Below are positions 22,692 to 37,522 of a stretch of 64,000 nt of DNA, one piece after another. The DNA lies in the NCBI RefSeq assembly GCF_029626235.1, contig NZ_JARUBO010000005.1, positions 1,954,501 to 2,018,500 of the forward strand, read 5' to 3'. The position numbers were made by a program, and so were the translations under genes. The stretch's first letter is position 1. Each line of letters starts with the position of its first letter. This DNA is from Micromonospora sp. WMMD1120. Lineage in GTDB: Bacteria > Actinomycetota > Actinomycetes > Mycobacteriales > Micromonosporaceae. The notes under the pieces are model-generated. The model worked only from the letters and a program-made list of their open reading frames with translations, made no database searches and had not been told where the DNA came from.

Positions 22692-22722
22692 CGCTGACTC
22701 CAATCCGGAAGGGGGTGCCAGG

Positions 22723-22760
22723 AGCCTAGCCACAGACATTAGTAAATATCAATGTCTGTG
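22723..22760 (-). promoter_or_regulatory. Promoter of the snapalysin gene covered by a perfect inverted repeat
   Basis: CACAGACATT (22731-22740) and AATGTCTGTG (22751-22760) are perfect 10-bp arms around an AT-rich 10-base centre. On the minus strand, TTGATA (22752-22747), an 18-bp spacer and TAGGCT (22728-22723) form a good -35/-10 pair, so the repeat covers the -35 and spacer and would suit a repressor or LysR-type regulator. It could also act as a terminator for the operon ending at 22811, but no T-run follows. Confidence 0.65.
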
Positions 22761-22810
22761 GCGCCGACTCCTGGTCGTCCGCCCTCCGGACGAGCGCCGA
22801 GCCACCGCCG

Positions 22811-23794
22811 CTACTGGGACCACCAGGTCGGCTGACGCGACCAGCGGTGCCGACGCAGGGTCGCCAGCACCTCCGGCTCCAGTGACCTCCCGTCGCTCAC
22901 CGCGATGTTGCTCTCGACGTGCGCGATCCGCCGCATCCCCGGGATCGTGGTGCAGACCCGACTGTCGGCCAGGATGAAGCGCAACGCCGCCTCCGGCATC
23001 GACATCCCGGGCGGCAGGTCCGCGCGCAGCGCCTCCGCCTTCGCGACGCTCTCGGCCAGGTTCTCCGGCACGAAGTACGAGTTGCGCCAGTCTCCCTCCG
23101 GCCACGTCGTGTCGACAGTCAACGTGCCGGTCAGCGTGCCCTCGTCGAACGGCACCCGGGCGATGACCGCGACGTCCTGCGCCGTCGCCGCCGGGAACAG
23201 CTCGTCCTCCGGGTCCTGGTCGAAGATGTTGTAGATGACCTGGACGGCGTCGATCAGCCCGGTCTCGATCGCCCGTACGCCGTTCCACGCCTCCCAGCGG
23301 TTGACCGAGATGCCGATCCCGCCGATCAGGCCGCTGTCCCGCAACTTCGTGAGGGTGTCCTGCCAGCGGCTGTCGTCCGCCCAGGAGTCCTCCCAGACGT
23401 GCAGTTGCAGCAGGTCGATCGACTCCAGCCCGAGATTGGCGAGGCTCTTGTGGACGTACTCCTCGATGTGTTCGGGAGGGAAGACGTCGTCGAGCGTCGA
23501 CTCGCGGGTCGACGGCCACCGCATGTCCTTCGGCGGCACCTTCGTGGCCACGTACAGCCGGGTGTCGGGGTTCGCCCGCACCAGGTCGCCGAGCACCCGC
23601 TCGCTGTGCCCGCGCCCGTACACCCAGGCGGTGTCGAAGAAGTTGCAACCCAGGTCGACGGCCCGCTGGAGCGCGGCGACCTTCTCGTCGTCCTCGACGC
23701 CGGTCCAGCCGTGCAGGCCGCCGCCGACGCCCCACATGCCGTACGAGACCTCACTTACCTGCCAGCCCAGCCGGCCGAACCTCCGATAGCGCAT
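22811..23794 (-). CDS. Aldo/keto reductase, last gene of the biosynthetic operon
   Basis: This 327-residue NADPH-dependent reductase has the AKR catalytic set Asp54, Tyr59 (FDTAWVYG), Lys85 (VATKVPP) and His132 (LLQLHVWED). The N-terminus MRYRRFGRLGWQVSEVSYG is typical of the family. The ATG at 23794 lies inside the end of the upstream gene (44-bp overlap), with AGGAAGG before it. In this operon it is a candidate to reduce the aldehyde released by the NRPS reductase domain, or another carbonyl (inference). A transcript-end hairpin is not obvious. Confidence 0.88.
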   Translation of the reverse strand: MRYRRFGRLGWQVSEVSYGMWGVGGGLHGWTGVEDDEKVAALQRAVDLGCNFFDTAWVYGRGHSERVLGDLVRANPDTRLYVATKVPPKDMRWPSTRESTLDDVFPPEHIEEYVHKSLANLGLESIDLLQLHVWEDSWADDSRWQDTLTKLRDSGLIGGIGISVNRWEAWNGVRAIETGLIDAVQVIYNIFDQDPEDELFPAATAQDVAVIARVPFDEGTLTGTLTVDTTWPEGDWRNSYFVPENLAESVAKAEALRADLPPGMSMPEAALRFILADSRVCTTIPGMRRIAHVESNIAVSDGRSLEPEVLATLRRHRWSRQPTWWSQ

Positions 23795-24983
23795 CGTCGC
23801 CTTCCTGCTGCGAGGGGATGGTGGGGGCGGGCCCGCCCCAGATCCGGACCGCCTGCCGGTAGTCCGAACCATCGATGGCGAAGGCCCGGGTCAGCTCGTC
23901 GGAGACGTCCGCCGGAGGCCGAACCAGGCCCGCCGTCCAGCGTGGCTCGGCGCCGCGGGCGCGCTTCGCACCGTAGGTGCCGGCGCCGAGATGCACCCCC
24001 GGCAGGCCCCGCTCCGCCGCGAGATCGCGGGGACGGTACATGGTCAGGTTGAAGTAGGAGTACGCCGCCGCCCGCTGCCCGAAGCCGGCCGCGCGGACGT
24101 ACACCCCGTCCGGCCACAGGTAGTTGAGGCTGAACCCGACCGCCTCGTCGCCGGCGAACTCCAGGAGCACCAGGCTGTACGCGTCCAACGCCGGCACCTG
24201 GGAGGCGAAGTAGCGGCGCATGTCGGCGTCGCTGTCCGGCCCACCGTACTTGCGCTGGGTGGCGCCGAGCAGTGGAGCGATCACGTCCACGCACTCGGCG
24301 AGCCGAACGGTCTCCACCCGGTCCACGGCGTCGTCGTAGCGCCGCCGTTCGCGCCGCCACTCCCGCCGGTCCGCCGCCTCGACGGTCCGGTCACCGCCCG
24401 GCGCGGGCAACACCGCCTCGGCCGAGAGCATCGCCGCCACCGGACCGCGGCCGGCCGGGCCGACCGCGCGATGCCACGCCTTCGAGTACGCGGCCACGTG
24501 TGCCACTGGCGTGTAGAGCAGTGCGACACAGGCCGCCCCGAGTCGTGCGGCGAGTGCCTCCACCTCGACGAAGAGGGCGGTCAGCACGGCGTCCCGCCGG
24601 TCGGCCGGCAGGTCCTTGGAGATGGCGACGGCACCGTGGTAGCCGGCCCGCGAACCCACCAGCAGCGCGGGCAGGAACGCGGCGTGCTCCTCGGCCGACA
24701 GCGACCGTTGCAGGTTCTCCTCGGCGATGTGACCCGGGCTGTACGCCAGGTTCATCGACGGCACGCTCGCGCCGTTCCACAGGTAGGTGGCCACCGCCGC
24801 GACGATGGCGCCCGAGGCGTCCCGGGCAACCAGGTAGGTGGTGACGAACGACGGGTCGGTCTCGGCCCAGGCCAGCCACGGGTAACCGCTGTAGAACCCC
24901 TCACCCTCGGCGAGGTCGTTCCACACCCGTTCGCCGATCTCGCGGATCGAGCGCAGGGCCGTGACCGACACGTCGCCGTCCAT
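23751..24983 (-). CDS. FemAB/GNAT-like acyl- or aminoacyltransferase
   Basis: This 410-residue protein fits the FemAB/peptidogalycan-biosynthesis type, with two GNAT-like folds. Supporting stretches are FYSGYPWLAWAETDPS and LNLAYSPG-like strands in the first half, and ALDAYSLVLLEFAGDEAVGFSLNYLWPD with HLGAGTYGAKRARGAEPRWTAGLV in the second; the last is the substrate-binding end seen in such proteins. Related enzymes move an amino acid from aminoacyl-tRNA or an acyl group from CoA to an amine. Its start shares one base with the upstream decarboxylase stop (TGATG), so it is translationally coupled. The substrate is unknown. Confidence 0.65.
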   Translation of the reverse strand: MDGDVSVTALRSIREIGERVWNDLAEGEGFYSGYPWLAWAETDPSFVTTYLVARDASGAIVAAVATYLWNGASVPSMNLAYSPGHIAEENLQRSLSAEEHAAFLPALLVGSRAGYHGAVAISKDLPADRRDAVLTALFVEVEALAARLGAACVALLYTPVAHVAAYSKAWHRAVGPAGRGPVAAMLSAEAVLPAPGGDRTVEAADRREWRRERRRYDDAVDRVETVRLAECVDVIAPLLGATQRKYGGPDSDADMRRYFASQVPALDAYSLVLLEFAGDEAVGFSLNYLWPDGVYVRAAGFGQRAAAYSYFNLTMYRPRDLAAERGLPGVHLGAGTYGAKRARGAEPRWTAGLVRPPADVSDELTRAFAIDGSDYRQAVRIWGGPAPTIPSQQEGDDALSEVRPAGLAGK

Positions 24984-26299
24984 CAGCCGTCCCGGTCGCT
25001 GCCGTCGTCGAGCAGTTCCAGCGCCACCAGGTCGTCGTACGTCTCCCGCCGTCGGATCAGCGAGACCTGGTCGCCGTGCACGAGCACCTCGGCGGGGCGC
25101 AACTGGCTGTTGTAGTTGCTCGTCATCGTCATGCCGTACGCGCCGGCCGTGAAGATCGCGAAGTGGTCACCGGCATTCAGCGTCGGCAATGACCGGCCCC
25201 GGGCCAGGTAGTCACTCGACTCGCAGATCGGGCCCACCACGTCGTACGTCGTGAGCCCCGTCAGGCCCGACACGTCACGGGAGGCGGGAACCGACTCGAC
25301 CGGCGGTCGCACCGGCCACATGAAGTGGTAGCTGTCGTACATCGCCGCGCGGGCGATGTGCGTCATGCCGGCGTCGATCACGGCGAGTTGGTGGTCACCG
25401 GCCTGCTTGAGATAGCGGACAGTGCTGAGCAGAATTCCGGCATTGGCGGCGATGGTGCGGCCCGGCTCGAAAATGACCTGACCACCCTGCCGGGTGAAGC
25501 CGGTGAGCCGGTGCACGATCACCTCGGCGAAATCGTCCCAGCTCGGCGCGGTGCGGTCGATGTATTCGGCGGGGAAACCGCCGCCCAGGTTGAGCGTCGT
25601 GATGCGGTGCCCGGCCGCCTCCAGCCGGCTGACGAGGTCGAGCAGTCGGTCCAGCGCGGTGGCGTAGACCTGCGGGTCGAAGATCGGGCTACCCAGGTGG
25701 ATGTGGAAACCCTCGATCCGCAGCGCGTCGTCGGCGGCGGCCCGCTCGAACAACGCCCCGGCCCGCTCGATGTCGACACCGAACTTGCCGCCCCGGGTGC
25801 CGGTCGTGGTGCGGGCCGGAGTGCGCTGGTCAGGGGCGACATCGGGGTTGACCCGGATCGCCAGCCGAGGACGCGCTCCCTCCTCGCGGGCGATCCGGGA
25901 CAGCAGCTCGACCTCCGCCTCGGACTCGACGTTGATGCAGCGGATGTTGCGACGGACCGCCTCCCGAAGCTCGCTCTCGGACTTGCCCACCCCGGCCAGC
26001 ACCGTCCGCTCGCTGTCGATCCCCGCCACCATCGCGCGGTGCAGCTCGCCCCCGCTGACCGCGTCGATCCCGGCGCCCTCCCGCCCGAGCAGCCGGAGCA
26101 GATGAACGTTGCCCAGCGCTTTCGCGGAGAAGCAGACCAATGGGCTGACCGGGTCGAAGGCCTTGGCGAATCGGCGATAATGATCAATCAGGGTGCTCGC
26201 GGAGTAGACGTATGTGGGTGTGCCGTAGCGCTCGGCCACCGCTGTCAGCGACACTCCTTCGCACCAGAGGGAACCGTCGCGATAGGTGAACTCATCCAT
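24983..26299 (-). CDS. LysA-type PLP decarboxylase with altered substrate loop
   Basis: This 438-residue fold type III PLP enzyme resembles diaminopimelate decarboxylase. The PLP lysine is Lys60 in CFSAKALGN; other marks are DAVSGGELHRAM, GFHIHLGS, NLGGGFPAEY, EPGRTIAANAGILL and VGPICESSDYLARG with the catalytic Cys359-Glu360 pair. The loop that holds diaminopimelate in LysA (DAGMNDLIRPALYDAYH type) reads DAGMTHIARAAMYDSYH, losing the usual Asn-Asp and Pro. It may therefore decarboxylate a different basic or carrier-bound amino acid, as BtrK does in butirosin. ATG 26299 was chosen for its GAGG; a GTG at 26341 is the alternative. Confidence 0.82.
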   Translation of the reverse strand: MDEFTYRDGSLWCEGVSLTAVAERYGTPTYVYSASTLIDHYRRFAKAFDPVSPLVCFSAKALGNVHLLRLLGREGAGIDAVSGGELHRAMVAGIDSERTVLAGVGKSESELREAVRRNIRCINVESEAEVELLSRIAREEGARPRLAIRVNPDVAPDQRTPARTTTGTRGGKFGVDIERAGALFERAAADDALRIEGFHIHLGSPIFDPQVYATALDRLLDLVSRLEAAGHRITTLNLGGGFPAEYIDRTAPSWDDFAEVIVHRLTGFTRQGGQVIFEPGRTIAANAGILLSTVRYLKQAGDHQLAVIDAGMTHIARAAMYDSYHFMWPVRPPVESVPASRDVSGLTGLTTYDVVGPICESSDYLARGRSLPTLNAGDHFAIFTAGAYGMTMTSNYNSQLRPAEVLVHGDQVSLIRRRETYDDLVALELLDDGSDRDG

Positions 26300-26359
26300 C
26301 AAATCCTCATTCGGGAGATCAGCGCTCAGGATATCGCCCACCCAACGGGGATCTACCCC

Positions 26360-28561
26360 TTATCGGGACTCGTACAGGCCGTTGTGTTCGAGAGCGCGAA
26401 TCCGCTGGTAGTCCTCCTCCAGGCGGGCCGGGTCGTCGGCGATCAGGTAGAGGTGACCGGGTGAGGTGAACAGGTCGACGGTCCGGTGCACGGGGGTGCC
26501 CGGCACCAGATCCAACGCCGTACCGCAGAAGATCGACGGGATCTCGGCCAGTCGCTGGGCAGCGCCCTCGGCGACAGTGCCGTCGTACGGCGCCACCAGG
26601 CAGACGACCATCAGGGCCCGCTGCCGTTGGTAGCCGGCGCCGATCCGCCGGGCGAAGCGTTCCGGGTCGGTGTACCGCTCGACGGTCAGCGACAACTGGC
26701 TCACCCCGGTCGCCCGCTCCGGCCCGGCCGGGGTGACACCGCCCTCCAGGCGCGCGCCGGACTCGATCAGGACCGGTCCCCGGTCGTCCACGAGCAGTTC
26801 GGTGTGCGCCGGGCCGGTACGCACGCCGAGCGCGTCCAGCACCCCCTCCACGAACGGCCGAAGGACGCCCTCGGTCTCACCGGTCCCGTCCAGCAGGAGT
26901 TGCCTGTCGTACACCGGACGGCCCTCGATGAAGAAGCGGTCGTCGCGCCAGATCTCGTGGATGTGGTGCCGGCCGTCGAGGCTCACGCTGTTGACGAAGT
27001 ACTGCTGGCCGACGAGTTGCTCCTGCACCAGCAGCGAGTCGTTGGGCTGGCCCATCGCGTTGGTGGCCCCGAGCAGCTTCGCCGTCGCGGATCGGGCCTG
27101 GGCCTCGTCCGCGCAGAAGTAGACGCCCTCCGAGCCGGCGCTGGCCGCGGGCTTGACCACCACCGGCAGCACCCGGCTGGCCGTCAGGAAGTCGTCCAGG
27201 TCCTCGACGCTGCCCACCCGCGCGCCGAGCGGCACCCGCAACCCCGCGCGGGCGACCGCCTCCATCATCGCGGGCTTCTCCCGCCGGGGTCGGTCGGCCG
27301 AGTGGACGTTGCCGGGCAGACCCAACAGGTGCGCGAGGTCGTCGGCCACGTTGACGCCCCACTCGCTGCCGGCGATCACCTCGACCGGGCGCATCGGGGC
27401 GAGCAGTTCGGCGGTGGCGTCGAGTGCCTGCGGGGACTCACCGCGCACTGTCAACACGGTCAGGAAGTCGTCGCGGCGCAGACCGGCGGCGTACCGCTCG
27501 TTGATGGTGCCGGTGAGGACCGCGACGCAGCGCCGGCCCTGCCTGTTGAAGGCGGGCGCCAGCATCGCGCCGGTCGAGAACGGGTCGACGATCACGACGA
27601 CCTCACCAGCGGCCACCCCGGCGGCCGGTGGCTGCACGACGGTCTCGGTGACGAACGGGGCATGGTACGGGCGCAGGTCGAGACCGTGGGCCGGGCGGAG
27701 CACGTCCAGCCGCATCGGCAGCGGGTCCGCCCAGGTGGCGAGCCGGTCCGGCGGCCGGGCGTAGCAGAGGCTCAGGGCCGGCTCGCCGAGCCGTTCGGTG
27801 CTGAGCACCAGTTCCGCCTCGTCGCAGCCGTCGTCGTCGGGGTCGAGGTGGTGCAGCGGCACCGGCACGAAGCCGAGTCGGCTCTTGAAGGTGAACAGGC
27901 CGGCCTGGACGATGTGCCCGTACAGGGTGGGGTCGGTGCCGAGCGAGACCCAGGTGAAGGCACGCCGGCGGGCCTCCTCGAACGCCGCCAGGTAGAGCGC
28001 CCGGCTGATCATCGCGTGGCGGACCTGTGGCCGGGCGGCCGAGAAGGCCACCCGCATCGCCGGGTCGGACGCGGCGACCCGGCAGACCACACCGGCGGTC
28101 AACTCGTCCCCGGTGCGCGCGGAGACGAAGAAGTAGTCGGCGAGCCCGGCCTCGGTGGCGACGACGGAGTGCGCCGCCGGCAGGCCGTGCGGCATGGTGG
28201 CGAGCTGCGCGTCGTAGACGGTCAGGAACTCGGCGAACAACTCCGGGGTGAGCCTGGCGTGCACCTCGATGGTGATCGCCTTCCGGTCGACGTACCGCCG
28301 TACGTCCCGGAAGTTGCGCCGTTCCGCCTTGGAGAGCCCGGCGAGGAAGTCCTCCGCGTGGGCCGGGGTGCGCCTCCCCCAGGTCACCCACCGCGGCTTG
28401 ATCCGGAAGCCGGCGGCCTGCAGATTCGCCCAGTGCTCCCGGGGTGGGTCGGTCACGACGACCACGTCCGCGTCGTCCGCCCACCGTCGGTCCAGTGCCT
28501 CCTGCGCCGTCACCATGGATCTGCGCAGGCCGTAGTAGTCGTGCGCGCCGTTTCCGGACAC
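26360..28561 (-). CDS. GNAT/FemAB-like domain fused to an ATP-grasp amino-acid ligase
   Basis: This 733-residue two-domain protein has a FemAB/GNAT-like module at about residues 70-240, with GLSKAERRNFRDVRRY and the closing GLFTFKSRLGFVP. The ATP-grasp module at about 320-660 has Lys470 (VVVKP), the loop SAGSEGV, LVQEQLVGQQYFVN, and Mg ligands Glu588 and Glu600 in HTELL and VLIESGARLEGG. The ATP-grasp part belongs with L-amino-acid ligases that join two amino acids through acyl phosphate. One protein could thus make two amide bonds. It starts with GTG after a G-rich leader. It is fourth from the end of the biosynthetic operon; the substrates are unknown. Confidence 0.8.
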   Translation of the reverse strand: MSGNGAHDYYGLRRSMVTAQEALDRRWADDADVVVVTDPPREHWANLQAAGFRIKPRWVTWGRRTPAHAEDFLAGLSKAERRNFRDVRRYVDRKAITIEVHARLTPELFAEFLTVYDAQLATMPHGLPAAHSVVATEAGLADYFFVSARTGDELTAGVVCRVAASDPAMRVAFSAARPQVRHAMISRALYLAAFEEARRRAFTWVSLGTDPTLYGHIVQAGLFTFKSRLGFVPVPLHHLDPDDDGCDEAELVLSTERLGEPALSLCYARPPDRLATWADPLPMRLDVLRPAHGLDLRPYHAPFVTETVVQPPAAGVAAGEVVVIVDPFSTGAMLAPAFNRQGRRCVAVLTGTINERYAAGLRRDDFLTVLTVRGESPQALDATAELLAPMRPVEVIAGSEWGVNVADDLAHLLGLPGNVHSADRPRREKPAMMEAVARAGLRVPLGARVGSVEDLDDFLTASRVLPVVVKPAASAGSEGVYFCADEAQARSATAKLLGATNAMGQPNDSLLVQEQLVGQQYFVNSVSLDGRHHIHEIWRDDRFFIEGRPVYDRQLLLDGTGETEGVLRPFVEGVLDALGVRTGPAHTELLVDDRGPVLIESGARLEGGVTPAGPERATGVSQLSLTVERYTDPERFARRIGAGYQRQRALMVVCLVAPYDGTVAEGAAQRLAEIPSIFCGTALDLVPGTPVHRTVDLFTSPGHLYLIADDPARLEEDYQRIRALEHNGLYESR

Positions 28562-28615
28562 GTGCCCCCCCGCTGTTTCCGTCCACCCCGGGCGTTGTTC
28601 GACCTCGCTGTCCCG

Positions 28616-29878
28616 TCACGCTCCGCTGTCGGCAGTGACCAATGAATCGACGGCGCTCAGCGTAGACCGCATCGACAAGACGGCCGCGAACGCGATCAGG
28701 GCGGCCGTCGGGGACAGCAGGCGCGCCTCGGTGGGGCCGAGCCAGCCCAGCACCGCCCCCGCCGCGAGCGTCCCGGCCGCGCTGCCCACCGCCATCATCG
28801 TCGCCGCGAGGGCGAACGACTCGTTGATCACCGTCTTCGGCACCAGGCTGCCGAGCAGGCCGAACTCCTCGGAGCTGAGCGCCGCCAGCGGCAGACCGGC
28901 GAGGAACAGGCAGCCCGCGAGCACCGGCACCGACGTGGCGAAGACCAGCGGCACCATGCACGCGAACGCCACCGCCAGCAGCACGAGGTAGCGGTTGACC
29001 GGCAGTCGACTGTGCTGCCGAGCGCCGTACACCAGTCCACCGAGGACGCTGGCCGCCGGGGGCAGCGAGAGCAGCGCCACGCCGGTCGCTGCGGCGTCGC
29101 CGTGCGCCGACACGGTCGCGGGCACTGTCACCTCGAGGACGGCGAACGCCGCGGCGGCCCCACCGGCGGCCACCAGGATCGCCACGACCCCGGGGATGCG
29201 CCACGGTCTCCGTTCACCCCGGGGGTGGCCGGCGCCGCCCCCGGCCGCGCCCGGCTCGGCGCCGTCGGTTTCCCGACGCATCGTCGCCACGGCCGGCGCG
29301 GTGCCGTACAGGAGGGAGCCGACCACGAGCATCCCGCCGGCCAGCAGTGTCGTGGTGAGTGCGCTGAAGACACCTGTCAACAGGCCGGTCAGGGCCGGGC
29401 CGATCACGAAGAAGACCTCGACCAGCACCGCCTCCAGTGCGTTGGCGGTGTTGAGCGCCGGGCCGGGCGGCAGGATCAGCGCCCAGGCCGCGCGGACGGT
29501 CGAGCCCACCGGGGCCATGGTCAGCGCGACGGGCGCGACCGAGGCCACCAGTAGCCAGGACGGGCCGCTGCCCGCGACAACGAACAGGGCCAGCGCCGCC
29601 GTGTGCAGCGCCGCCAGGGTCAGCAACACGACCCGCAACCCGCGCCGGTCGATCAGTCGGCCGTGCAGGGGCCAGGCGACGGCCAGCGCCGCCGAGAAGA
29701 CGCCGAGGGCCGTCGCGCCGGCCGTGTAGGAGCCGGTCTCGGCGCTGATGTGCAGGAAGATCGCCAGCGGTTCGATGGCCACCGGCAGCCGGGCGAGCAT
29801 GGCGGGCAGCATCACCCGGGGGACGCCGGGCGTACGCCAGAGTGCGGCGTAACGCCCGACGGCTTCACCCAGTGACAT
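28616..29878 (-). CDS. MFS exporter of the biosynthetic operon
   Basis: This 420-residue protein has about 12 hydrophobic segments and the MFS loop WPLHGRLIDRRGLRVV. A hydrophilic stretch rich in Gly, Arg and Glu (about 200-230) forms the central cytoplasmic loop. Its position inside the operon, 11 bp after the first radical SAM gene and 54 bp before the ATP-grasp gene, suggests it exports the product and may provide self-protection. The ATG at 29878 was chosen. The substrate is inferred from context only. Confidence 0.85.
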   Translation of the reverse strand: MSLGEAVGRYAALWRTPGVPRVMLPAMLARLPVAIEPLAIFLHISAETGSYTAGATALGVFSAALAVAWPLHGRLIDRRGLRVVLLTLAALHTAALALFVVAGSGPSWLLVASVAPVALTMAPVGSTVRAAWALILPPGPALNTANALEAVLVEVFFVIGPALTGLLTGVFSALTTTLLAGGMLVVGSLLYGTAPAVATMRRETDGAEPGAAGGGAGHPRGERRPWRIPGVVAILVAAGGAAAAFAVLEVTVPATVSAHGDAAATGVALLSLPPAASVLGGLVYGARQHSRLPVNRYLVLLAVAFACMVPLVFATSVPVLAGCLFLAGLPLAALSSEEFGLLGSLVPKTVINESFALAATMMAVGSAAGTLAAGAVLGWLGPTEARLLSPTAALIAFAAVLSMRSTLSAVDSLVTADSGA

Positions 29879-29889
29879 CAGTCACCAGT

Positions 29890-31464
29890 TCAGACAACGG
29901 GGACGGACTCCTTCTGCGCATGCGGCCGGTAGATGCCGTCGTACTGGTCGATGAGGGAGCCGTTCAGCGCCTCGGTGAGCCGGAGGCGTTGCTCGAACAG
30001 CTCGTAGTAGGAGAGGTGGTTCGACGGCATCGGCGAGAGGTAGACGCTGATCACTTCCGGCGTCTCCTCGATGTTGAACGATAGTCGATCCGCCTTCTTG
30101 CGGAAGTCCGCGGTCCCCGGGAGCAGGGTCCGGTTGAAGACATTGAAGTAGCTGGTCGCCTCGGTGCTGGCCTCGTGGAGCCGGGCCTTGAGTTGCAGGC
30201 AGCGGTCGAGGTACATGTCGATCATCGCCTGGTCGTCGTCGTCATGCCCGATCAGCATGTTGAAGGTCAGATACCGGACGCCGAGGTCCAGCATCGAGGT
30301 GACGATCTGTAGCTGCTCCTGGAACGGCCGCAGCTTGTTGAACTTCTTGGTGGGCTCGTCGCCGAGGTATTCCAGCGGGATCTGCACCCGGTAGCAGCCG
30401 ACCCAGCGGTCCCCGCTGGTGTCGTTCCAGAACAGGGTCTCCATCAACTCCCTGTCCACCTCGCCCAGGTCGAGGAACTTGCCGAACTCGAGCCCGTTGG
30501 CGAACTCCCAGGAGAAGCCCATCTCGCGGGCCATCCGGAAGATCGCCAGCGTGTCCTCCCGCCCGCTGTCGTGCAGCAGCGTTCCCCGCCCGGAGCGCTG
30601 GATCCGGGAGAGCGTGTTGTCCTCCTGGAACAGGATGTTCGAGATCCCCATCGACTTCAGGTACTCGAAGTGCCGGCGTACGACCTCCGGCTTCATGTAG
30701 CGGTAGTGCCCGCGCATCGGGGTCGCGCAGAACGAGCACGTCCGGTAGCAGCCACGCGAGGTCTCGAAGCAGGTGAACGGGGGGCGTACCGTCATCGGCG
30801 GCTGGCCCTCGCCGGTGTCGTCGTAGACCGACAGGTCGTCGATCAGGTCGAGCGCCATCGGTGGCAACTCGGCCAGGTTCAGCTGGGCGCCACCCATGAT
30901 GACGAGGCCGTCGCCGACGCGCCGGGTCATCACCATGCTCTCGATGGGCTGACCGGTCGCCCTCGCCTGGATCAGCTTGGCGAAGGTCAGCTCACCCTCG
31001 AGCTGGATCACCACGTCGAAACCGTTGGCCAGGTACCACTCCGGTCGCGCGGTGACGTCCATGCCGCCGCCGACGACGAGCGCGTTCGGGTTCACCTGCT
31101 TGAGGAACGTGGCGAACTCGGTCACCACCCGCGCCGAGTTGGTGAAGTTGTTGGAGATTCCGATGATGTCGGCGGCACGGGCCTCGTCGGCGTACGCCTC
31201 GAACGGGCCGCCGTAGCGGTGGCAGTCGATGGTGCGCGGCCCGTACTGGAACGAGGCGTAGTGCTCCGGTTCACCGGCGTCGACCTGGGTGTCGACGATC
31301 TTGAACTCCGCGTCGACGCCCCACTCGCGCAGGTAGGCGCGGGCGCCCGCGGCCAGCGTGACGAGGGCGCTCTTGGGGTTGCGGACACGCACCGGGCTGA
31401 TGGTCGTGTCCTCGTCGCGGAACGACTGCCCGGGGTACGGGGCGTACAACAGGGTGACGCGCAT
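29890..31464 (-). CDS. B12-binding radical SAM enzyme 1
   Basis: This 524-residue enzyme has an N-terminal cobalamin-binding Rossmann-like domain (about 1-165), then a radical SAM barrel with the iron-sulfur motif CYRTCSFC (Cys239, Cys243, Cys246) preceded by ETSRG. Class B radical SAM enzymes use methylcobalamin and SAM to methylate unactivated carbons or, less often, to rearrange or cyclise. A C-terminal segment of about 120 residues is shared with its neighbour. The ATG is preceded by AGGAGGT. It lies 16 bp after its paralogue, so the two may act in sequence or as partners. There is no precursor peptide nearby, so the target is probably a small molecule or carrier-bound amino acid. Confidence 0.9.
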   Translation of the reverse strand: MRVTLLYAPYPGQSFRDEDTTISPVRVRNPKSALVTLAAGARAYLREWGVDAEFKIVDTQVDAGEPEHYASFQYGPRTIDCHRYGGPFEAYADEARAADIIGISNNFTNSARVVTEFATFLKQVNPNALVVGGGMDVTARPEWYLANGFDVVIQLEGELTFAKLIQARATGQPIESMVMTRRVGDGLVIMGGAQLNLAELPPMALDLIDDLSVYDDTGEGQPPMTVRPPFTCFETSRGCYRTCSFCATPMRGHYRYMKPEVVRRHFEYLKSMGISNILFQEDNTLSRIQRSGRGTLLHDSGREDTLAIFRMAREMGFSWEFANGLEFGKFLDLGEVDRELMETLFWNDTSGDRWVGCYRVQIPLEYLGDEPTKKFNKLRPFQEQLQIVTSMLDLGVRYLTFNMLIGHDDDDQAMIDMYLDRCLQLKARLHEASTEATSYFNVFNRTLLPGTADFRKKADRLSFNIEETPEVISVYLSPMPSNHLSYYELFEQRLRLTEALNGSLIDQYDGIYRPHAQKESVPVV

Positions 31465-31480
31465 GGCCGGTACCTCCTGG

Positions 31481-33034
31481 TCAGCCCGCGTAGATGCCGT
31501 CGTAGAGACGGTGCATCTCGCGATCGTTGAGCATGGTCGTCATCTCAAGACGCTTCTGGTAGATGTCCCAGTAGGTGAAGTGATCGGTGTTGATCGCCGA
31601 CAGGAAGATCCCGATCACCTCCGGGTTCTCGTCGATGTCGAACTGGAGCAGGGAGTGCAGCGTGGTCCAGTCCCGGGCGCCCGGGAGCAGCGACAGGTTG
31701 AACACGTTGAAGTACGGCTGGTACCTCCCCTGCCCGACGGACGTCAGCTCCTCCTTCAACCGCAGGCAGTAGTCGGTGAACATGTCGATGCCCTCGCGGT
31801 CGTGCTCGGGATAGCCGATGAACAGGTCGTACGTCTGGTGGCCGACGCCGTGGTCGGTGAGCATCGTGGCCAGCACGTCGACCTGCTCGTCGAAGCCGAG
31901 CAGCTTCGGGAACCGGCGCTTCTTGACGTTCATGTTGTCCAGCGGGATCTGCACGCGGTAGCAACCGACCCAGCGGCCGTCGACCATCTTGCTGCCGAGC
32001 AGGGCGTCGGCGAGTTCGTGGTCGAAGCTGCCGTTCTGCATGAACTTGCCGAACTCGATGCCGTTGGCGAACTCCCAGGCGAAGCCGTAGTCCCGGAACA
32101 TGTGGAACATCGCGAGCACGTCCTCGCGCCCGGAGTCGTACAGGTAGCGGCCGGTGCCGTTCTGTTGGATCCGGGACAGCGGGTTGTCCTCCTGCCACAC
32201 GATCGTCTTGATGCCGTACTCCTGGAACGTCTTGAGGTGTTTCTCCATCGTCGGCAGGCTCATGTAGCGGTAGCCGCCCCGGGACGGGGCGGTGCAGAAC
32301 GAGCACCGCCACGCGCAGCCGCGGGACGTCTCCCAGCAGATGAAGCTGCCCTGCACGCCCTCCGGCGGCGGCCCCTCGGCGGTGTCCGTGTAGACGGAGA
32401 GGTCGGGGATCAGGTCCAGGGCCATCGGCTCGATCGAGTCCATCGGAATGGTCTCGCCGGTGTCCACCTTCGTGGGGATGAGCCGGCCCCGGAGCGAGAT
32501 GTTCGGCACGGTGCCGAGGTCCTGCTTACGGTTCAGCGCGTCGATGATCCGGGCGAAGGTCAGCTCGCCCTCGCCGCGCACCACCACGTCCGCGCCCCGG
32601 GCGAGGTAGTACTGCGGACGGGCGGTGCAGTCGACCCCGCCCACCACGACGAGGGCCTTCGGGTTGACCCGCTTGATGTGCTGGGCGAGGTCGCTGACGA
32701 TGTTCGCGCTGTTGGTGAAGTTGCAGGTGATCCCGTGCACCTCGGCCGAGCGGATCTTCTCGTCGGCCTCCTCGAACGGGGTGCCGTACCGGAAACAGTC
32801 CATGATCCGAGGGCCGTACGGCAGCGACTTGTACTTGACCCGTTGCCCACCGAGCTGGAGGTCGATGATCTCGATGTCGCAGGAGTAGCCAAAGTGCGGG
32901 GCGTACGCCCGCAGCCCGGCGGCGATGGTGGTCAGCGCGCTCTTCGGGTTGAGTGGCCGCTCGGTGTTGATCGGCTCGCTCTCCCCCTGGAAGATCTGCG
33001 AGGGGAAGGGGGCGTAGTAGAGGTTCACCTTCAT
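31481..33034 (-). CDS. B12-binding radical SAM enzyme 2
   Basis: This 517-residue protein is collinear with the neighbouring radical SAM enzyme. It has an N-terminal B12-binding domain (about 1-165) and the cluster motif CAWRCSFC (Cys240, Cys244, Cys247) after ETSRG. Blocks shared with the neighbour include WVGCYRVQIPL, SGREDVLAMF and EFANGIEFGKF, which mark a tandem duplication followed by divergence. The ATG follows CAGGAGACGCC. It lies 28 bp after the NRPS gene. The enzyme could methylate the substrate held on the NRPS carrier or a free amino acid; which is not visible from sequence. Confidence 0.9.
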   Translation of the reverse strand: MKVNLYYAPFPSQIFQGESEPINTERPLNPKSALTTIAAGLRAYAPHFGYSCDIEIIDLQLGGQRVKYKSLPYGPRIMDCFRYGTPFEEADEKIRSAEVHGITCNFTNSANIVSDLAQHIKRVNPKALVVVGGVDCTARPQYYLARGADVVVRGEGELTFARIIDALNRKQDLGTVPNISLRGRLIPTKVDTGETIPMDSIEPMALDLIPDLSVYTDTAEGPPPEGVQGSFICWETSRGCAWRCSFCTAPSRGGYRYMSLPTMEKHLKTFQEYGIKTIVWQEDNPLSRIQQNGTGRYLYDSGREDVLAMFHMFRDYGFAWEFANGIEFGKFMQNGSFDHELADALLGSKMVDGRWVGCYRVQIPLDNMNVKKRRFPKLLGFDEQVDVLATMLTDHGVGHQTYDLFIGYPEHDREGIDMFTDYCLRLKEELTSVGQGRYQPYFNVFNLSLLPGARDWTTLHSLLQFDIDENPEVIGIFLSAINTDHFTYWDIYQKRLEMTTMLNDREMHRLYDGIYAG

Positions 33035-33062
33035 GGCGTCTCCTGGGCCGGTAGGTCGCGGT

Positions 33063-36000
33063 TCACTGGACTGTCGCGGTGGACAGGTGCGGACGGTTCA
33101 CCGACCGGTGGGCCCTCGTGAGACGGTCGATCATCGTGTCGATCTCCGCGTCCCGACGGGTTGCCCAGTCGAGGCCGAGGTCCCGGGCCAGCCGGGCGGC
33201 GCGGACCGTGTCGGTGCCGACCAGGGCGTCGTGGCACACCCCGGTCAGTGCGTCGGTCGCCGCGGCGCTGCGGGGCCGAAGAACAGCGAGACAGCGGGCT
33301 GTCTCGTCATCGCCGACCAGGTCGGCGGCCCGGTCGAGGAACCGGTCGTACGGGACTTCCGGCAGCGCGCCCGCATCGGTGCGGAGCCGGGACAGCAGAT
33401 CGGACACCGGCACCGACCCCGGCGCCACCACGTTCAGCACGGTGCCCGGTGGCACCGGGTCGGTGAGCGCGGCGACCACCCGTGCGACCAGGTCGACAGG
33501 GGTCCAGTCCACGTGCAGGCCGGTCGGTGGCCGTACGCCGAGCCGCAGGCAGAGCCGCAGCATCATGGTCACCGAGGACCGCGGGTTGGCGTGCCCGGTG
33601 CGTGCGTGGGCGGCGACCTCTCCCAGCCGGACGACGGCGCACGGCACACCCTGCTCGGTGGCTGTCCGCAGCAGTTGCTCACCGACCCATTTGGACTGGC
33701 TGTAGCCGTCGGGCGGCAGCGCGGACCAGCGCGGCAGGAACGACTCGGCGAGGGGCGCGCCGGGGGCGTGCCGCACCGTTGTCGTCGACAGCGAGATGAT
33801 CCGCTTGCGGACGTGGGTGCCGGCGAGGTGGATGAGGGTGCGCAGGCCGTGCACGTTGGTGGTGCGGAGGTCGGCGTAGTCGCGCAGGGTGTCGACCCGA
33901 CCGCCGGCGTCGACGAGGGTGCCGACCTGTCGGCAGAGCCGCCGCCAGTCCGCGGACACCAGCCCGAGGTGGGGCTTCTCCAGGTCACCGGCGAGCGCCG
34001 ACCATCCGGTCAGTTCGGCCGGTCGGTAGCCGGCGGCCGCCAGCCCGGACGCGACCCGGTGCCGGGCCGCCTCGTCGTCGGTGGCGCGGACCAGGCAGAC
34101 GATCGGCCGGTCACCGTGTGCCGAGAGCGCGGCCAGCACGTGCGAACCGATGAAGCCGGTCGCGCCGACCAGCAGTATCGATCCCCTGTCGCCCGGCCGC
34201 CGGACCCGCATCCGGCCCAGCTCGCCGAGGCGCAGGTCGTCGGCGAGTTCGTGGGGCGCCACCGCGGGCGGGGGCAGCGGGCTGCCCCGCCGGACCAGCT
34301 CGGCCTGCGCCGCGATGGTCGCCGAACGGATCAGGTCGCGGACGTCCAGTCGGATTCCGAACGCGCGCTCGAACTCGACAGCGAGTCGGGCCGCCCCGAG
34401 CGAGGTGCCACCCAGGCAGTAGAAGTCGTCGTCGTTGGCGCTGAAGCCCAGCACCCGTGCCCAGATCTCGGCGATCCGCGCCTCGACGCTGTCCGCCGGG
34501 TAGCCGGCCTCGGGCTCGGCGGTCTTCGGCGCGGTGCCGGCCAGCCGGCGGCGCAGGCGTTCCTGGTCGACCTTGCCGTTGGAGAGCAGCGGCAGGGTGG
34601 CGAGGCGGACGAACCTGCCGGGCACCAGCGCGGCGGGGAGCGCGGCCCGGACGTGCCCGCGCAGCGCGTCCTCGGTCACCAGGCGGTCGGCCGAGTAGAA
34701 GCAGACCATCGTCGACGACGCGCCGGCGTCGTCGACGATCACCTTCACCTGGTGTACGCCGGGCAGCGTGGTGATCGCGCACTCGACCTCGCCCAGGTCG
34801 ACGCGCATGCCGGCGATCTGGACCTGCGCGTCGCGGCGGCCGCTGAACATGAGCAGGCCGTCCTCGCGTACCCAGCCGAAGTCCCCGGTGCGGTAGAGCA
34901 GGTCGCCGGCGACCTCGTCGTACGGGTTCGGGACGAAGACCTGCCGGGTCCGCTGGACGTCGCCGTGGTAGCCGGCGCCGAGGCAGACGCCGGCGAGATG
35001 GATCTCGCCGATCTCGCCCCGGGGGGTCGGGAGACCGTGCTGGTCGAGGAGGAGCACCGACGTGTTGGGCAGCGGCAGACCGAGTGGGATGACCTGGCGG
35101 TCGTCGTCGGTCACGGCGTGGAAGACCGAGCCGATCGACGCCTCCGTCGGGCCGTAGGTGTTCGTCACGCGGATGTCGGCGAACATCCGCCGGAAGGCCT
35201 GCACCGTGTGCGGTTTGGCGGCCTCACCGCCGATGAAGACCTGACGCATCGACGCCAGCAGGTGCCGGTCCTGTGGGCGGTGCTCCAGGCGTTCGACGAG
35301 CAGGTCGAAGATGCTGGGAACGAAGTCGGTCATGGTGACGCCGTGCCGGTGGATCTGGGCCAGCGTCGCGTCGAAGTCGAGGATCCCGGTGCGGTCCGGG
35401 ATGACCACGGTGCCGCCGCGGGTCAGCGGCCAGAGCAGCTGCCAGATCGACGAGTCGAAGGTGTGCGCCGAGTTCTGCAGGACCACGGCGCCGTCGGCGG
35501 CGAACCGTTCGGTCATCGACAGGAAGCGGTTGACCAGGCCGTGGTGCAGGTTGACAGCGCACTTGGGCAGCCCGGTGGAGCCGCTGGTGAAGAACGCGTA
35601 GATGGGGTCGTCCGGCCGGGCCCGACCGGTGGTGGGCACCCGGCGGCGGAGCGTGGTCGGCGTCGTCCGCACGTCGATCACCGGCAGGTCGGGCGCGCCG
35701 TCCGGTGGCGTCGACCCGACGGCGGCCACCGGGCGGAGCCCGTCGAGCATCCGCACCTGGCGGAGGGTCGGCCAGGTCTTGTCGAACGGCACGAACGCGG
35801 CGCCTGACCGCATGGTGCCGAGCATCGCGACGAGGAGCCCGACCCGGTCGTCGAGCAGGAGCGCGACGAAATCACCCTGCCGCGCGCCGACGGCGAGCAG
35901 GTCGGCTGTGACGGCGTCGGCCAGCCGGTCCACGTCCCGGTAGGTGAGTGTGCCGGTGGGGTGGATGACCGCCGTGTCGTCGGGGTGCCGGCGGATCGTC

Positions 36001-36110
36001 TCGTCGATGAGGTCGACGACCGTCTGGTGGATAGGACGTGGCCGGACTGGTCCGTTGAGAAGAGCGCCGAGCTGGGTGGGGCTGGGGCGCTCTGTCCGCG
36101 CGATGGTCAA
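33063..36110 (-). CDS. Single-module NRPS: adenylation, carrier and thioester reductase, no condensation domain
   Basis: Counting from the TTG at 36110 gives 1015 residues. The adenylation domain (about 30-520) has FTSGSTGLPK, NTYGPTE, YRTGD and NGKVD (Lys513). The carrier domain has LGGTSL with Ser570. The reductase domain (640-1015) has VGATGFIG and the YSQSK pair Tyr803/Lys807, so release as an aldehyde or alcohol is expected. Aligned to GrsA, the specificity positions read D-S-W-D-F-G-T-I-G-K; Asp at the fourth place is seen in lysine and arginine codes, so a basic amino acid is a weak guess. A Cys replaces the usual Gly in the PKG motif. The start is uncertain: ATG 36215 or further upstream are possible, but that DNA is AT-rich and promoter-like. 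Confidence 0.9.
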   Translation of the reverse strand: MTIARTERPSPTQLGALLNGPVRPRPIHQTVVDLIDETIRRHPDDTAVIHPTGTLTYRDVDRLADAVTADLLAVGARQGDFVALLLDDRVGLLVAMLGTMRSGAAFVPFDKTWPTLRQVRMLDGLRPVAAVGSTPPDGAPDLPVIDVRTTPTTLRRRVPTTGRARPDDPIYAFFTSGSTGLPKCAVNLHHGLVNRFLSMTERFAADGAVVLQNSAHTFDSSIWQLLWPLTRGGTVVIPDRTGILDFDATLAQIHRHGVTMTDFVPSIFDLLVERLEHRPQDRHLLASMRQVFIGGEAAKPHTVQAFRRMFADIRVTNTYGPTEASIGSVFHAVTDDDRQVIPLGLPLPNTSVLLLDQHGLPTPRGEIGEIHLAGVCLGAGYHGDVQRTRQVFVPNPYDEVAGDLLYRTGDFGWVREDGLLMFSGRRDAQVQIAGMRVDLGEVECAITTLPGVHQVKVIVDDAGASSTMVCFYSADRLVTEDALRGHVRAALPAALVPGRFVRLATLPLLSNGKVDQERLRRRLAGTAPKTAEPEAGYPADSVEARIAEIWARVLGFSANDDDFYCLGGTSLGAARLAVEFERAFGIRLDVRDLIRSATIAAQAELVRRGSPLPPPAVAPHELADDLRLGELGRMRVRRPGDRGSILLVGATGFIGSHVLAALSAHGDRPIVCLVRATDDEAARHRVASGLAAAGYRPAELTGWSALAGDLEKPHLGLVSADWRRLCRQVGTLVDAGGRVDTLRDYADLRTTNVHGLRTLIHLAGTHVRKRIISLSTTTVRHAPGAPLAESFLPRWSALPPDGYSQSKWVGEQLLRTATEQGVPCAVVRLGEVAAHARTGHANPRSSVTMMLRLCLRLGVRPPTGLHVDWTPVDLVARVVAALTDPVPPGTVLNVVAPGSVPVSDLLSRLRTDAGALPEVPYDRFLDRAADLVGDDETARCLAVLRPRSAAATDALTGVCHDALVGTDTVRAARLARDLGLDWATRRDAEIDTMIDRLTRAHRSVNRPHLSTATVQ

Positions 36111-36555
36111 GGTTTTTCTGAGGACACCACGGAGGCACCTCTCCCGAGCTGAAACAATATGCCGTTGCGGCGACACCGTAGGCAGGATTGATAGTCCCCG
36201 TTGACTCCAACGCATCGTAACTACGAAGTTTTGAAATTGTCTATGCATCGATAGTGGTGATTTACCACCGCCGAACAGGGCGAAGCGTCGATATCGGTAG
36301 TGTCGAATTTGCCCCGGTTGGTCGCTGGTGCGGCACCGGCCCGTCGCCAGGTCGTCAGTTTCCGCGGATAGCAGCGGAAACCCAATGCTGTCAACGATTC
36401 TCAGTCCTCGGGACCAACGATCTTGTGGTGTCGATCCCACTGTCGGGGCGGACCCGCCGGTCAGTGCTTTTGGATCTGGTCCGCAATCCTCGGAATCAGG
36501 TACGGTCCCACTGCCGCCACCCTGTCCTCCCGATACCTCGGGGAAACGAAGGGGT
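36111..36555. promoter_or_regulatory. Divergent control region between the NRPS operon and the binding-protein gene
   Basis: This 445-bp gap holds the only notably AT-rich stretch near the cluster (about 36140-36260), with candidate promoter sequences for the minus strand and a GGGAGAGG ribosome-site-like run at about 36137-36145. On the plus side there is a hairpin TTTCCGC-GGATAGCA-GCGGAAA (36359-36380). Short imperfect duplications around TCCCACTG occur near 36440 and 36510. I could not recognise a cobalamin riboswitch (no B12 box), although the adjacent operon needs B12. Confidence 0.45.
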
Positions 36556-37380
36556 ATGAATGTGATTGTCAACATGCCGGTTCGAATCGTCGGTCTTCTT
36601 CTTGGCGTCGGCGCGCTCGCCCTCGGCGCCGGATGCGCCAAAAAGGATCAGGGCGAGGTGCAGGGCAGCGGGGTCAAACTGATCAAGGCGGGCACCCTCA
36701 CCGTCTGCACCCACCTGCCGTACGCGCCGTTCCAGTCGAAGGACGCCAGGGGCGAGGTGGTCGGGTTCGACGTCGACGTGATGGAGTTGGTCGCCAAGAA
36801 GTTGGGCGTCAAGCAGGCGATCGTCGACACGCCGTTCGAGGGCATCAAGTCCGGTCAGGACCTGAACACCGGCAAGTGCGACGCCGCCGCCGCGGGCATG
36901 ACGATCACCGAGGAGCGGCAGAAGGTGATGGACTTCTCCGTCCCCTACTTCGATGCCACCCAGGCGATGCTGGTCAAGGTCGGCAAGCCGTACCGGTCGC
37001 TGGACGACCTGCGGGGCCGCAAGGTGGGCGTGCAGGCGGCGACCACGGGCCGTGACTACGCCCGCGGGTTCGAGAAGGAGAAGGGCCTCCAACTCGTCGA
37101 GTTCGAGGACCTCGCCGCCGAGCAGCAGGCGCTCGCCACCGGGCAGATCGAGGCCGCCATCAACGACCTGCCGGTCTGGGCCGAGTACATCAAGGAGAAC
37201 CCGGGCGGCTTCGAGGTGGCGGCCGAGTTCAACACCGGCGAGCAGTACGGCATCTCGGTGAAGAAGGGCGGCAACCCGGAGCTGCTCAGGACGATCAACG
37301 AGGAGTTGACCAGGGCGAAGCAGGACGGCACGTACGACACGCTCTACGAGAAGTGGATCGGCAGGAAGCCGAACGCCTGA
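36556..37380 (+). CDS. Orphan amino-acid-binding lipoprotein (ABC solute-binding protein, family 3)
   Basis: This 274-residue lipoprotein has a lipobox ending LGAGC (Cys near residue 27), then a periplasmic-binding fold of the polar-amino-acid type. Marks include GTLTVCTHLPYAPFQSKD, GFDVDVMELVAKKLGV, MTITEERQKVMDFSVPYFDATQ and VGVQAATTGRDYA. It would bind an amino acid or similar ligand outside the cell and deliver it to a permease. No permease or ATPase gene lies nearby. It is divergent from the NRPS operon and precedes the carboxyltransferase gene. A role in product or precursor uptake is speculation. Confidence 0.85.
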   Translation: MNVIVNMPVRIVGLLLGVGALALGAGCAKKDQGEVQGSGVKLIKAGTLTVCTHLPYAPFQSKDARGEVVGFDVDVMELVAKKLGVKQAIVDTPFEGIKSGQDLNTGKCDAAAAGMTITEERQKVMDFSVPYFDATQAMLVKVGKPYRSLDDLRGRKVGVQAATTGRDYARGFEKEKGLQLVEFEDLAAEQQALATGQIEAAINDLPVWAEYIKENPGGFEVAAEFNTGEQYGISVKKGGNPELLRTINEELTRAKQDGTYDTLYEKWIGRKPNA

Positions 37381-37398
37381 GCCGTCCCGCCACGCCGT

Positions 37399-37415
37399 CC
37401 GCGCGCCGCGCGCGG
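37399..37415 (+). terminator. Weak GC hairpin after the binding-protein gene
   Basis: CCGCGCG-CCG-CGCGCGG forms a 7-bp stem with a three-base loop, 18 bp past the stop codon. There is no T-run, and it may be incidental in such GC-rich sequence. Confidence 0.3.
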
Positions 37416-37449
37416 CGGTTGGCCGTCGCGGCTTTCCCGGGTACGTTAG

Positions 37450-37466
37450 CCTAACGATCGTTTAGG
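37450..37466. promoter_or_regulatory. TetR-type operator candidate upstream of the acyl-CoA carboxylase beta gene
   Basis: CCTAACGATCGTTTAGG contains the perfect 10-bp palindrome AACGATCGTT (37453-37462) with CCTAA/TTAGG outside it. It lies 57 bp before the GTG start in a locally AT-richer stretch. Such ACG-N-CGT palindromes are typical TetR operators; the TetR at 18864 is one candidate binder. Confidence 0.55.
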
Positions 37467-37522
37467 TCGGTCGGCGTGCCCAGCGCGGCTGCCGGCCGGG
37501 GTGGCGGCAGTAGGGGGTCGGC

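Follow-up and report, generated by a model that had tools for sequence, protein, structure and literature searches.

A compact operon of Micromonospora sp. WMMD1120 combining a condensation-less nonribosomal peptide synthetase with two cobalamin-binding radical SAM enzymes

To gain insight into a putative biosynthetic locus of Micromonospora sp. WMMD1120 we analyzed a stretch of 64,000 nucleotides of its genome (contig NZ_JARUBO010000005.1, positions 1,954,501 to 2,018,500), here referred to as the window. An operon of eight co-directional open reading frames (ORFs), here named g1 to g8 in the order of transcription, is located on the minus strand of the window from 22,811 to 36,110. We judge the chances about even that it represents a compact biosynthetic unit for a small peptide-like metabolite which is assembled without a condensation domain of a nonribosomal peptide synthetase (NRPS). 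This grade refers to the overall class of the pathway, and our confidence in any given substrate is much lower. The best reading of the product from sequence would be a small peptide aldehyde or alcohol derived from a basic amino acid and carrying a C-methylated residue.

The first gene, g1 (33063..36110, minus strand as for all eight genes), encodes a free-standing NRPS of 1015 amino acids (aa). It is composed of adenylation, thiolation and reductase domains (A-T-R; Pfam AMP-binding, PP-binding and NAD_binding_4), and neither a condensation nor a thioesterase domain was found by Pfam and NCBIfam scans. TIGR01733 was matched with 332.2 bits (cut-off 317.4) and the thioester reductase model TIGR01746 with 221.2 bits (cut-off 213.35), and the motifs of the R domain were found. 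PF00668 is absent among the Pfam matches of g1, in agreement with the initial annotation, which had described an NRPS without condensation domain. Two cobalamin-binding radical S-adenosylmethionine (SAM) enzymes follow, namely g2 (31481..33034, 517 aa; B12-binding 47.8 bits, Radical_SAM 35.3 bits) and g3 (29890..31464, 524 aa; 46.6 and 42.9 bits, respectively), with all four matches above the Pfam cut-offs. The gene g4 (28616..29878; MFS_1, 51.6 bits) encodes an MFS transporter and probable exporter. The product of g5 (26360..28561, 733 aa) is a fusion of an N-terminal FemAB-like/Acetyltransf_6 domain (~27,605-28,561) and a C-terminal ATP-grasp domain similar to L-amino acid ligases (~26,360-27,604). 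A pyridoxal phosphate-dependent decarboxylase similar to LysA, the diaminopimelate (DAP) decarboxylase, is encoded by g6 (24983..26341, 452 aa; TIGR01048 lysA). The last two genes are g7 (23751..24983, 410 aa; Pfam Acetyltransf_6), whose product has a predicted FemX fold and is a candidate aminoacyl-tRNA-dependent amide-forming enzyme, and g8 (22811..23794; Aldo_ket_red, 170 bits), which encodes an aldo/keto reductase.

From g1 to g6 the genes are separated by 28, 16, 11, 54 and 18 bp, followed by a 1-bp overlap of g6 and g7 and an overlap of g7 and g8. The start of g8 was refined from 23,872 and is probably the internal ATG at 23,794, because in Micromonospora okii, Tistrella and a genome here named G950 the homology sets in only at residues 18-27 of the longer frame. 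The overlap of g7 and g8 therefore amounts to 44 bp. The start of g1 at 36,110 is a TTG that is overlapped by the end of a short leader-like GTG frame (VVSSEKP, ~36,112-36,135, minus strand), possibly a leader for translational coupling. A promoter-like site upstream of g1 (TAGACA-18-TACGAT, 36214..36243, minus strand) was the only minus-strand match of a promoter consensus scan over 22,700-37,520; as a consensus match it is a putative promoter only. Apart from the refinements given below, the eight minus-strand genes with their position, tight spacing and families, as proposed initially, were recovered by the ORF coordinates and the Pfam and NCBIfam scans.

Together with a divergently orientated gene for an orphan SBP_bac_3 substrate-binding protein (36328..37380, plus strand; Pfam 129.6 bits) the operon forms an insertion of ~14.7 kb between the genes for HMG-CoA lyase and methylcrotonyl-CoA carboxylase. 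The distance from HMG-CoA lyase to methylcrotonyl-CoA carboxylase beta is 15.5 kb in the window. In a hand-picked sample of ten operon-less Micromonospora genomes both genes were consistently ~0.1-0.9 kb apart (10/10) and the site was empty; a snapalysin-like gene was present between lyase and carboxylase in four of these genomes. Compared with three operon-less loci (L036, L038 and L045), the homology of the flanks is lost at 22,728-22,757 and regained at 37,437-37,514, so that the inserted stretch spans approximately 22757..37437. A tie of the operon to leucine degradation via its flanking genes was ruled out, since these are neighbours without the operon in all ten relatives. The SBP_bac_3 protein is of the amino-acid type with no adjoining permease genes, and is a candidate for a role in uptake, sensing or self-protection.

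The genes g1 to g8 were syntenic in M. tarensis, M. alfalfae, M. acroterricola and M. okii with protein identities of 78-98%, and the SBP_bac_3 gene adjoined the operon in all four species. Additionally, contigs outside the genus are shared by relatives of several of the genes, as described below. The operon thus co-occurs as a unit in related genomes, so that a scattered occurrence of its genes, which the initial annotation had named as evidence against its proposal, was not found. In M. okii an in-frame g5 without the N-terminal FemAB-like domain was present (L023 14476-15801 compared with window 27611-28450), and the fusion was therefore gained or lost within the genus. In the draft genome of M. 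tarensis the reading frame of g5 is broken (L021 near 15766). The ratio of nonsynonymous to synonymous substitution rates (dN/dS) was 0.04-0.15 for the pair g2/g3, 0.11-0.13 for g6 and 0.10-0.34 for the remaining operon genes and gene parts, and the operon genes are under purifying selection. The SBP_bac_3 gene (0.34-0.45) is the fastest-evolving gene of the insertion.

The proteins encoded by g2 and g3 share 47% identity. Both contain a B12-binding domain, a radical SAM domain and the motif CxxxCxxC (CAWRCSFC in g2, CYRTCSFC in g3), as is characteristic of class B radical SAM enzymes, and the motif was likewise present in 119 of 120 homologues among the matches listed. Members of the cobalamin radical SAM family also perform chemistry other than C-methylation. 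Among the matches listed, relatives of g2 originated from Streptomyces, Protofrankia, Acidimicrobiales and other sources. The protein search with g7 yielded only 18 proteins, including those of Protofrankia, Streptomyces and Kitasatospora.

Outside Micromonospora the sizes of the contigs carrying these relatives were compared. Exact agreement in size with a g3-like cluster was found for 15 of the 29 g2-like clusters whose longest contig measures 5 kb or more. By chance 0.08 would be expected over the entire comparison, in which 96 of the 120 radical SAM relatives among the matches listed were included; the longest contig is that of the 90% cluster. Nine contig sizes were common to relatives of the NRPS and of the radical SAM enzymes, and six to relatives of g7 and the radical SAM enzymes. 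As these 96 radical SAM entries were used and the 11 NRPS entries were picked by eye, a chance estimate is given only for the coincidence of the two radical SAM enzymes. The trees of both groups mirror each other (g2-like and g3-like: r 0.953, 16 pairs, 0 of 2000 permutations), and the same holds true for the NRPS and g3-like proteins (r 0.947, 9 pairs, 1 of 5000 permutations). For the g2/g3 comparison one pair (P0038/P0097) was dropped for its length; after midpoint rooting the support was 0.41 for the grouping of radical SAM 1 (g2-like) and 0.998 for the clade of radical SAM 2 (g3-like). Judged by these sequence comparisons, the radical SAM pair is co-inherited outside Micromonospora. One observation weighs against a common unit: among the best 120 homologues, the A-T-R protein of Kitasatospora putterlickiae lies on a contig of a different size than the relatives of the radical SAM enzymes and g7.

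Full-length radical SAM 1 was found in four of 101 relatives, one of them being the own genome, in two of 31 genomes of the genus (the own and G004), and in one of 394 genomes of the class and one of 376 of the phylum, which was the own genome in both cases. None of 392 genomes of a genus which its chaplin genes mark as Streptomyces carried it, and none of 200 genomes of the family of that genus was found with the Kitasatospora protein as query. With the Protofrankia query one of 348 genomes of the order was recovered, again the own genome of the window; these samples overlap, and the empty ones outside Micromonospora were searched without a positive control. Loci outside Micromonospora are rare rather than absent, because protein records of Streptomyces, Kitasatospora and Protofrankia carry relatives. 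None of 26 pattern matches in viral contigs was a relative, and none of 20 plasmid records covered 80% of radical SAM 1.

The A domain of g1 carries the code DSWDFGTIGK. Among the best 120 homologues the codes were DSWDLGTIGK (94), DSWDFGTIGK (10), DSWDYGTIGK (5), DAWDLGTIGK (4), DSWDIGGIGK (3), DPWDVGTIGK (2) and two others found once each. This nearly invariant code suggests a single class of substrate for the widespread A-T-R family. A domains that activate basic amino acids often have an Asp at the fourth position of the code. No reference protein of known substrate with the code DSWDFGTIGK was found, and the code did not occur in open-licence papers. A regular expression for the T domain matched only 54 of 120 and was not used. 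The family is sparse, being present in two of 45 genomes including the own and in three of 35 genomes of a further sample.

Eight long homologues (P0181, P0219, P0221, P0229, P0233, P0241, P0246 and P0258) carry ~200 extra N-terminal residues with no Pfam match, which by eye resemble the tail of a lost condensation domain. A fusion to a leucyl/phenylalanyl-tRNA-protein transferase (L/F transferase) was considered and rejected, as none was found in a scan of these eight. In Amycolatopsis aidingensis (P0177) an A-T-R protein of the g1 family carries a fused APS-kinase domain, suggesting that a phosphorylated variant exists.

The ATP-grasp part of g5 reached the subfamily cut-off of PRK07206 (332.6 bits, cut-off 302) and matched an L-amino acid ligase of known structure (PDB 30vh, E 8.4e-62). 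In the window the N-terminal domain matched FemAB-like and Acetyltransf_6 models only weakly and below the cut-offs (E 0.0011 and 0.0035), and the copy of M. alfalfae passed the Acetyltransf_6 cut-off. Of the GNAT/ATP-grasp fusion assigned in the initial annotation the ATP-grasp part can thus be retained, while the other part is better described as FemAB-like. A structural model of g5 had a mean predicted local distance difference test score (pLDDT) of 38.1 and was not used. For g7 a confident AlphaFold2 model with a pLDDT of 87.7 and a predicted template modelling score of 0.85 was obtained, and its comparison refined the earlier assignment FemAB-like to a FemX fold. The best Foldseek match was Sbb17, a peptide synthase that depends on aminoacyl-tRNA (E 3.6e-10), followed by FemX and Sba18. 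With VIA-align the Z scores were 22.1 for FemX (root mean square deviation 4.0, 300 aligned), 20.6 for Sbb17 and 20.5 for FemA, compared with 17-19 for MprF/L-PGS and 16-17.6 for relatives that use acyl-CoA; that a protein was not listed in the structure search was not counted as absence.

These scores bear on the first alternative, in which both g7 and the N-terminal part of g5 would act as N-acyltransferases with acyl-CoA as donor and the peptide bond would be formed by the ATP-grasp ligase alone, in a manner similar to leupeptin. We regard this as possible but rather doubtful, since the top solved folds for g7 are tRNA-dependent transferases by ~3-5 Z units and the best Foldseek match is a tRNA-dependent peptide synthase. 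A fold is no proof of the donor, and the ranking of the predicted structure favours a tRNA-dependent enzyme without proving it.

Five A-T-R loci outside the operon were examined, and an aldo/keto reductase adjoins the NRPS gene in two of them. On plasmid pTM3 of Tistrella mobilis a reductase with 65% identity to g8 is located directly after the A-T-R gene, and an ATP-grasp protein with 40% identity to that of g5 is encoded nearby (PRK07206, 391.6 bits). The locus (L058 13338-22127) is a different compact cluster of A-T-R, aldo/keto reductase, a probable iron/2-oxoglutarate enzyme, desaturase-like, EamA-like and ATP-grasp proteins. In G950 (L063 8588-15938) the A-T-R gene and a 65% identical reductase are found beside a protein similar to argininosuccinate synthase that does not reach the argG cut-off (237 compared with 268 bits); a LuxR-type regulator is located beside A-T-R as well. 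No reductase was found at the remaining three loci. Of these, G908 carried an Acetyltransf_6 protein, an MFS protein and an aminotransferase, G860 an Acetyltransf_6 protein (by reading frame) and Embleya a weak LysA-like neighbour (29%).

In a second alternative the aldehyde is only an intermediate which is reduced by g8 or another step, so that the product would be an amino alcohol or an amine without a protease-inhibiting warhead. Within the operon g8 is one of the better conserved genes, and its relatives beside A-T-R genes show ~65% identity at loci where the NRPS itself is ~40% identical. Furthermore, a class III aminotransferase is encoded close to the A-T-R gene of G908, although it scores above the cut-off of a general family as well. 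On the other hand, a reductase is missing at three of the five loci, and aldo/keto reductases of the g8 family can act elsewhere in a pathway. On balance we consider this alternative conceivable, though on the unlikely side.

The decarboxylase g6 matched TIGR01048 with 417.6 bits (cut-off 297.9), and its best-matching solved structures are DAP decarboxylases (PDB 2p3e, E 1.6e-96). An alignment with the LysA-like proteins of the same genome, covering the sequence up to the CES motif, showed that g6 keeps EPGR, R...Y and CES, the distal-site signature of DAP decarboxylase. The genome holds four other members of the g6 family; one of them (33% identical to g6) keeps the signature and three do not. 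That g6 is the housekeeping LysA is unlikely, given this second protein with the same signature. Family score, structure match and signature make DAP, or an amino acid similar to it, the probable substrate of g6. The LysA-like decarboxylase of the initial annotation can be kept as to family and narrowed from any decarboxylase to one with a DAP-decarboxylase signature.

A third alternative is centred on lysine or DAP. Here g2 and g3 would alkylate DAP or lysine, g6 would remove the D-carboxylate of the altered DAP and g1 would reduce the resulting lysine-like amino acid, leading to a cyclic imine or an amino alcohol and not in an open peptide aldehyde. The features of g6, its low dN/dS and the second LysA-like gene in the genome are consistent with it, as is the weaker LysA-like neighbour of the Embleya A-T-R gene. 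However, nothing points to an action of g2 or g3 on DAP or lysine, no LysA-like gene was found by tblastn in the fetched stretches near the A-T-R genes of Tistrella, G860, G908 and G950, and an ordinary supply of lysine accounts for g6 equally well. We consider this explanation unlikely. That two or more unrelated operons have come to lie together by chance, as the divergent, fastest-evolving binding-protein gene and the dispensable N-terminal domain of g5 in M. okii might suggest, is highly improbable. This explanation was rejected in view of the single clean insertion, the same order in five species, the tight spacing and, outside Micromonospora, the contigs in common and the mirrored trees.

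No described pathway with this enzyme set was found in open-licence full-text literature, and as far as this literature goes the corresponding statement of the initial annotation is supported. The closest case is livipeptin of Streptomyces lividans 66 (Sli0883-0885, MIBiG BGC0001168). According to PMC10548850 it is formed by a condensation-less A-T-R NRPS, an L/F transferase and an N-acyltransferase; the synthesis is RNase-sensitive, the A domain is predicted for arginine and the structure of the product is not yet solved. Combining such an NRPS with a tRNA-using amide former is thus not new in itself (PMC10548850). Both systems share the free-standing A-T-R protein, a separate amide former that uses tRNA (probable for the operon) and a proposed small peptide aldehyde. 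The livipeptin core comprises three genes with an L/F transferase as tRNA-using enzyme and has no radical SAM, ATP-grasp or LysA-like enzyme, whereas the amide formers of the operon are FemX-like and ATP-grasp proteins, and two radical SAM enzymes, the LysA-like enzyme, the aldo/keto reductase and the MFS exporter come in addition. No L/F transferase family was found among the Pfam matches of the eight proteins (E 0.001), and the operon is therefore not a member of the livipeptin type.

Leupeptin of gammaproteobacteria is a small peptide aldehyde made by separate ligases and not by a multimodular NRPS. The operon as read here would be similar in this respect. To our knowledge the leupeptin pathway has no radical SAM or LysA-like step. 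Leupeptin gene clusters are mentioned in PMC10548850 and PMC11480411, and PMC11427300 demonstrates that warhead peptides can be assembled by ATP-grasp enzymes.

Single proteins of the operon have further counterparts. The streptothricin-type enzymes Sbb17 and Sba18 and the peptidoglycan enzyme FemX are the nearest folds to g7, yet share only 12-15% sequence identity and act in a different pathway context. DdaF (dapdiamide A synthase) and other PRK07206 ligases share the ATP-grasp domain with g5; however, g5 scored 177 bits with the DdaF equivalog, far below the cut-off of 840, and is fused to a FemAB-like domain. The C-methylases TokK and CysS resemble g2 and g3 in their N-terminal B12-binding and radical SAM domains (g2 compared with TokK, E 7.7e-9), but neither operon enzyme reached any NCBIfam cut-off, and both belong to a distinct family of ~520 aa inherited as a pair. 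The Tistrella locus, of which we know no earlier description, shares a nearly identical code, the 65% identical reductase and a related ATP-grasp protein, whereas desaturase-like and EamA-like proteins and the probable iron/2-oxoglutarate enzyme (by eye) replace the radical SAM pair and the LysA-like and FemX-like genes.

Taken together, we infer the following steps from sequence. The A domain of g1 would load a basic amino acid (arginine- or lysine-like) onto the T domain, and the R domain would release the loaded residue reductively as an aldehyde or, after the action of g8, as an alcohol. Two enzymes would form amide bonds to this residue, namely the ATP-grasp ligase in g5 and the FemX-type enzyme g7, which probably uses aminoacyl-tRNA. 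The FemAB-like domain of g5 may serve as an additional transferase for acyl or aminoacyl groups. The obligate pair g2/g3 may C-methylate either the peptide or one of its amino acid building blocks, g6 may decarboxylate a DAP-like precursor to supply a lysine-like residue, and g4 would export the product. By analogy to livipeptin and leupeptin, protease inhibition would be the likeliest activity.

Quite speculatively, the operon might represent a new family of condensation-free warhead peptides. Here the obligate, vertically paired enzymes g2 and g3 would build a C-alkylated DAP- or lysine-like amino acid that is finished by a dedicated LysA through D-specific decarboxylation. A FemX-type enzyme using charged tRNA and an ATP-grasp ligase using ATP would join the residues, and the A-T-R protein with its fixed code for basic amino acids would make the aldehyde. 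If the favoured reading given above is right, it would extend the one published logic of condensation-less NRPS and tRNA-dependent enzymes to a FemX-like enzyme and ATP-grasp ligation, and it would add radical C-methylation to peptide aldehydes. We know of no peptide-aldehyde inhibitor that carries a radical C-methylation. With its mirrored trees the radical SAM pair also lends itself to testing whether two cobalamin enzymes are tied to a single pathway. Furthermore, the nearly invariant ten-residue code, found from Micromonospora to an alphaproteobacterial plasmid, provides a handle for genome mining of many small and easily overlooked clusters.

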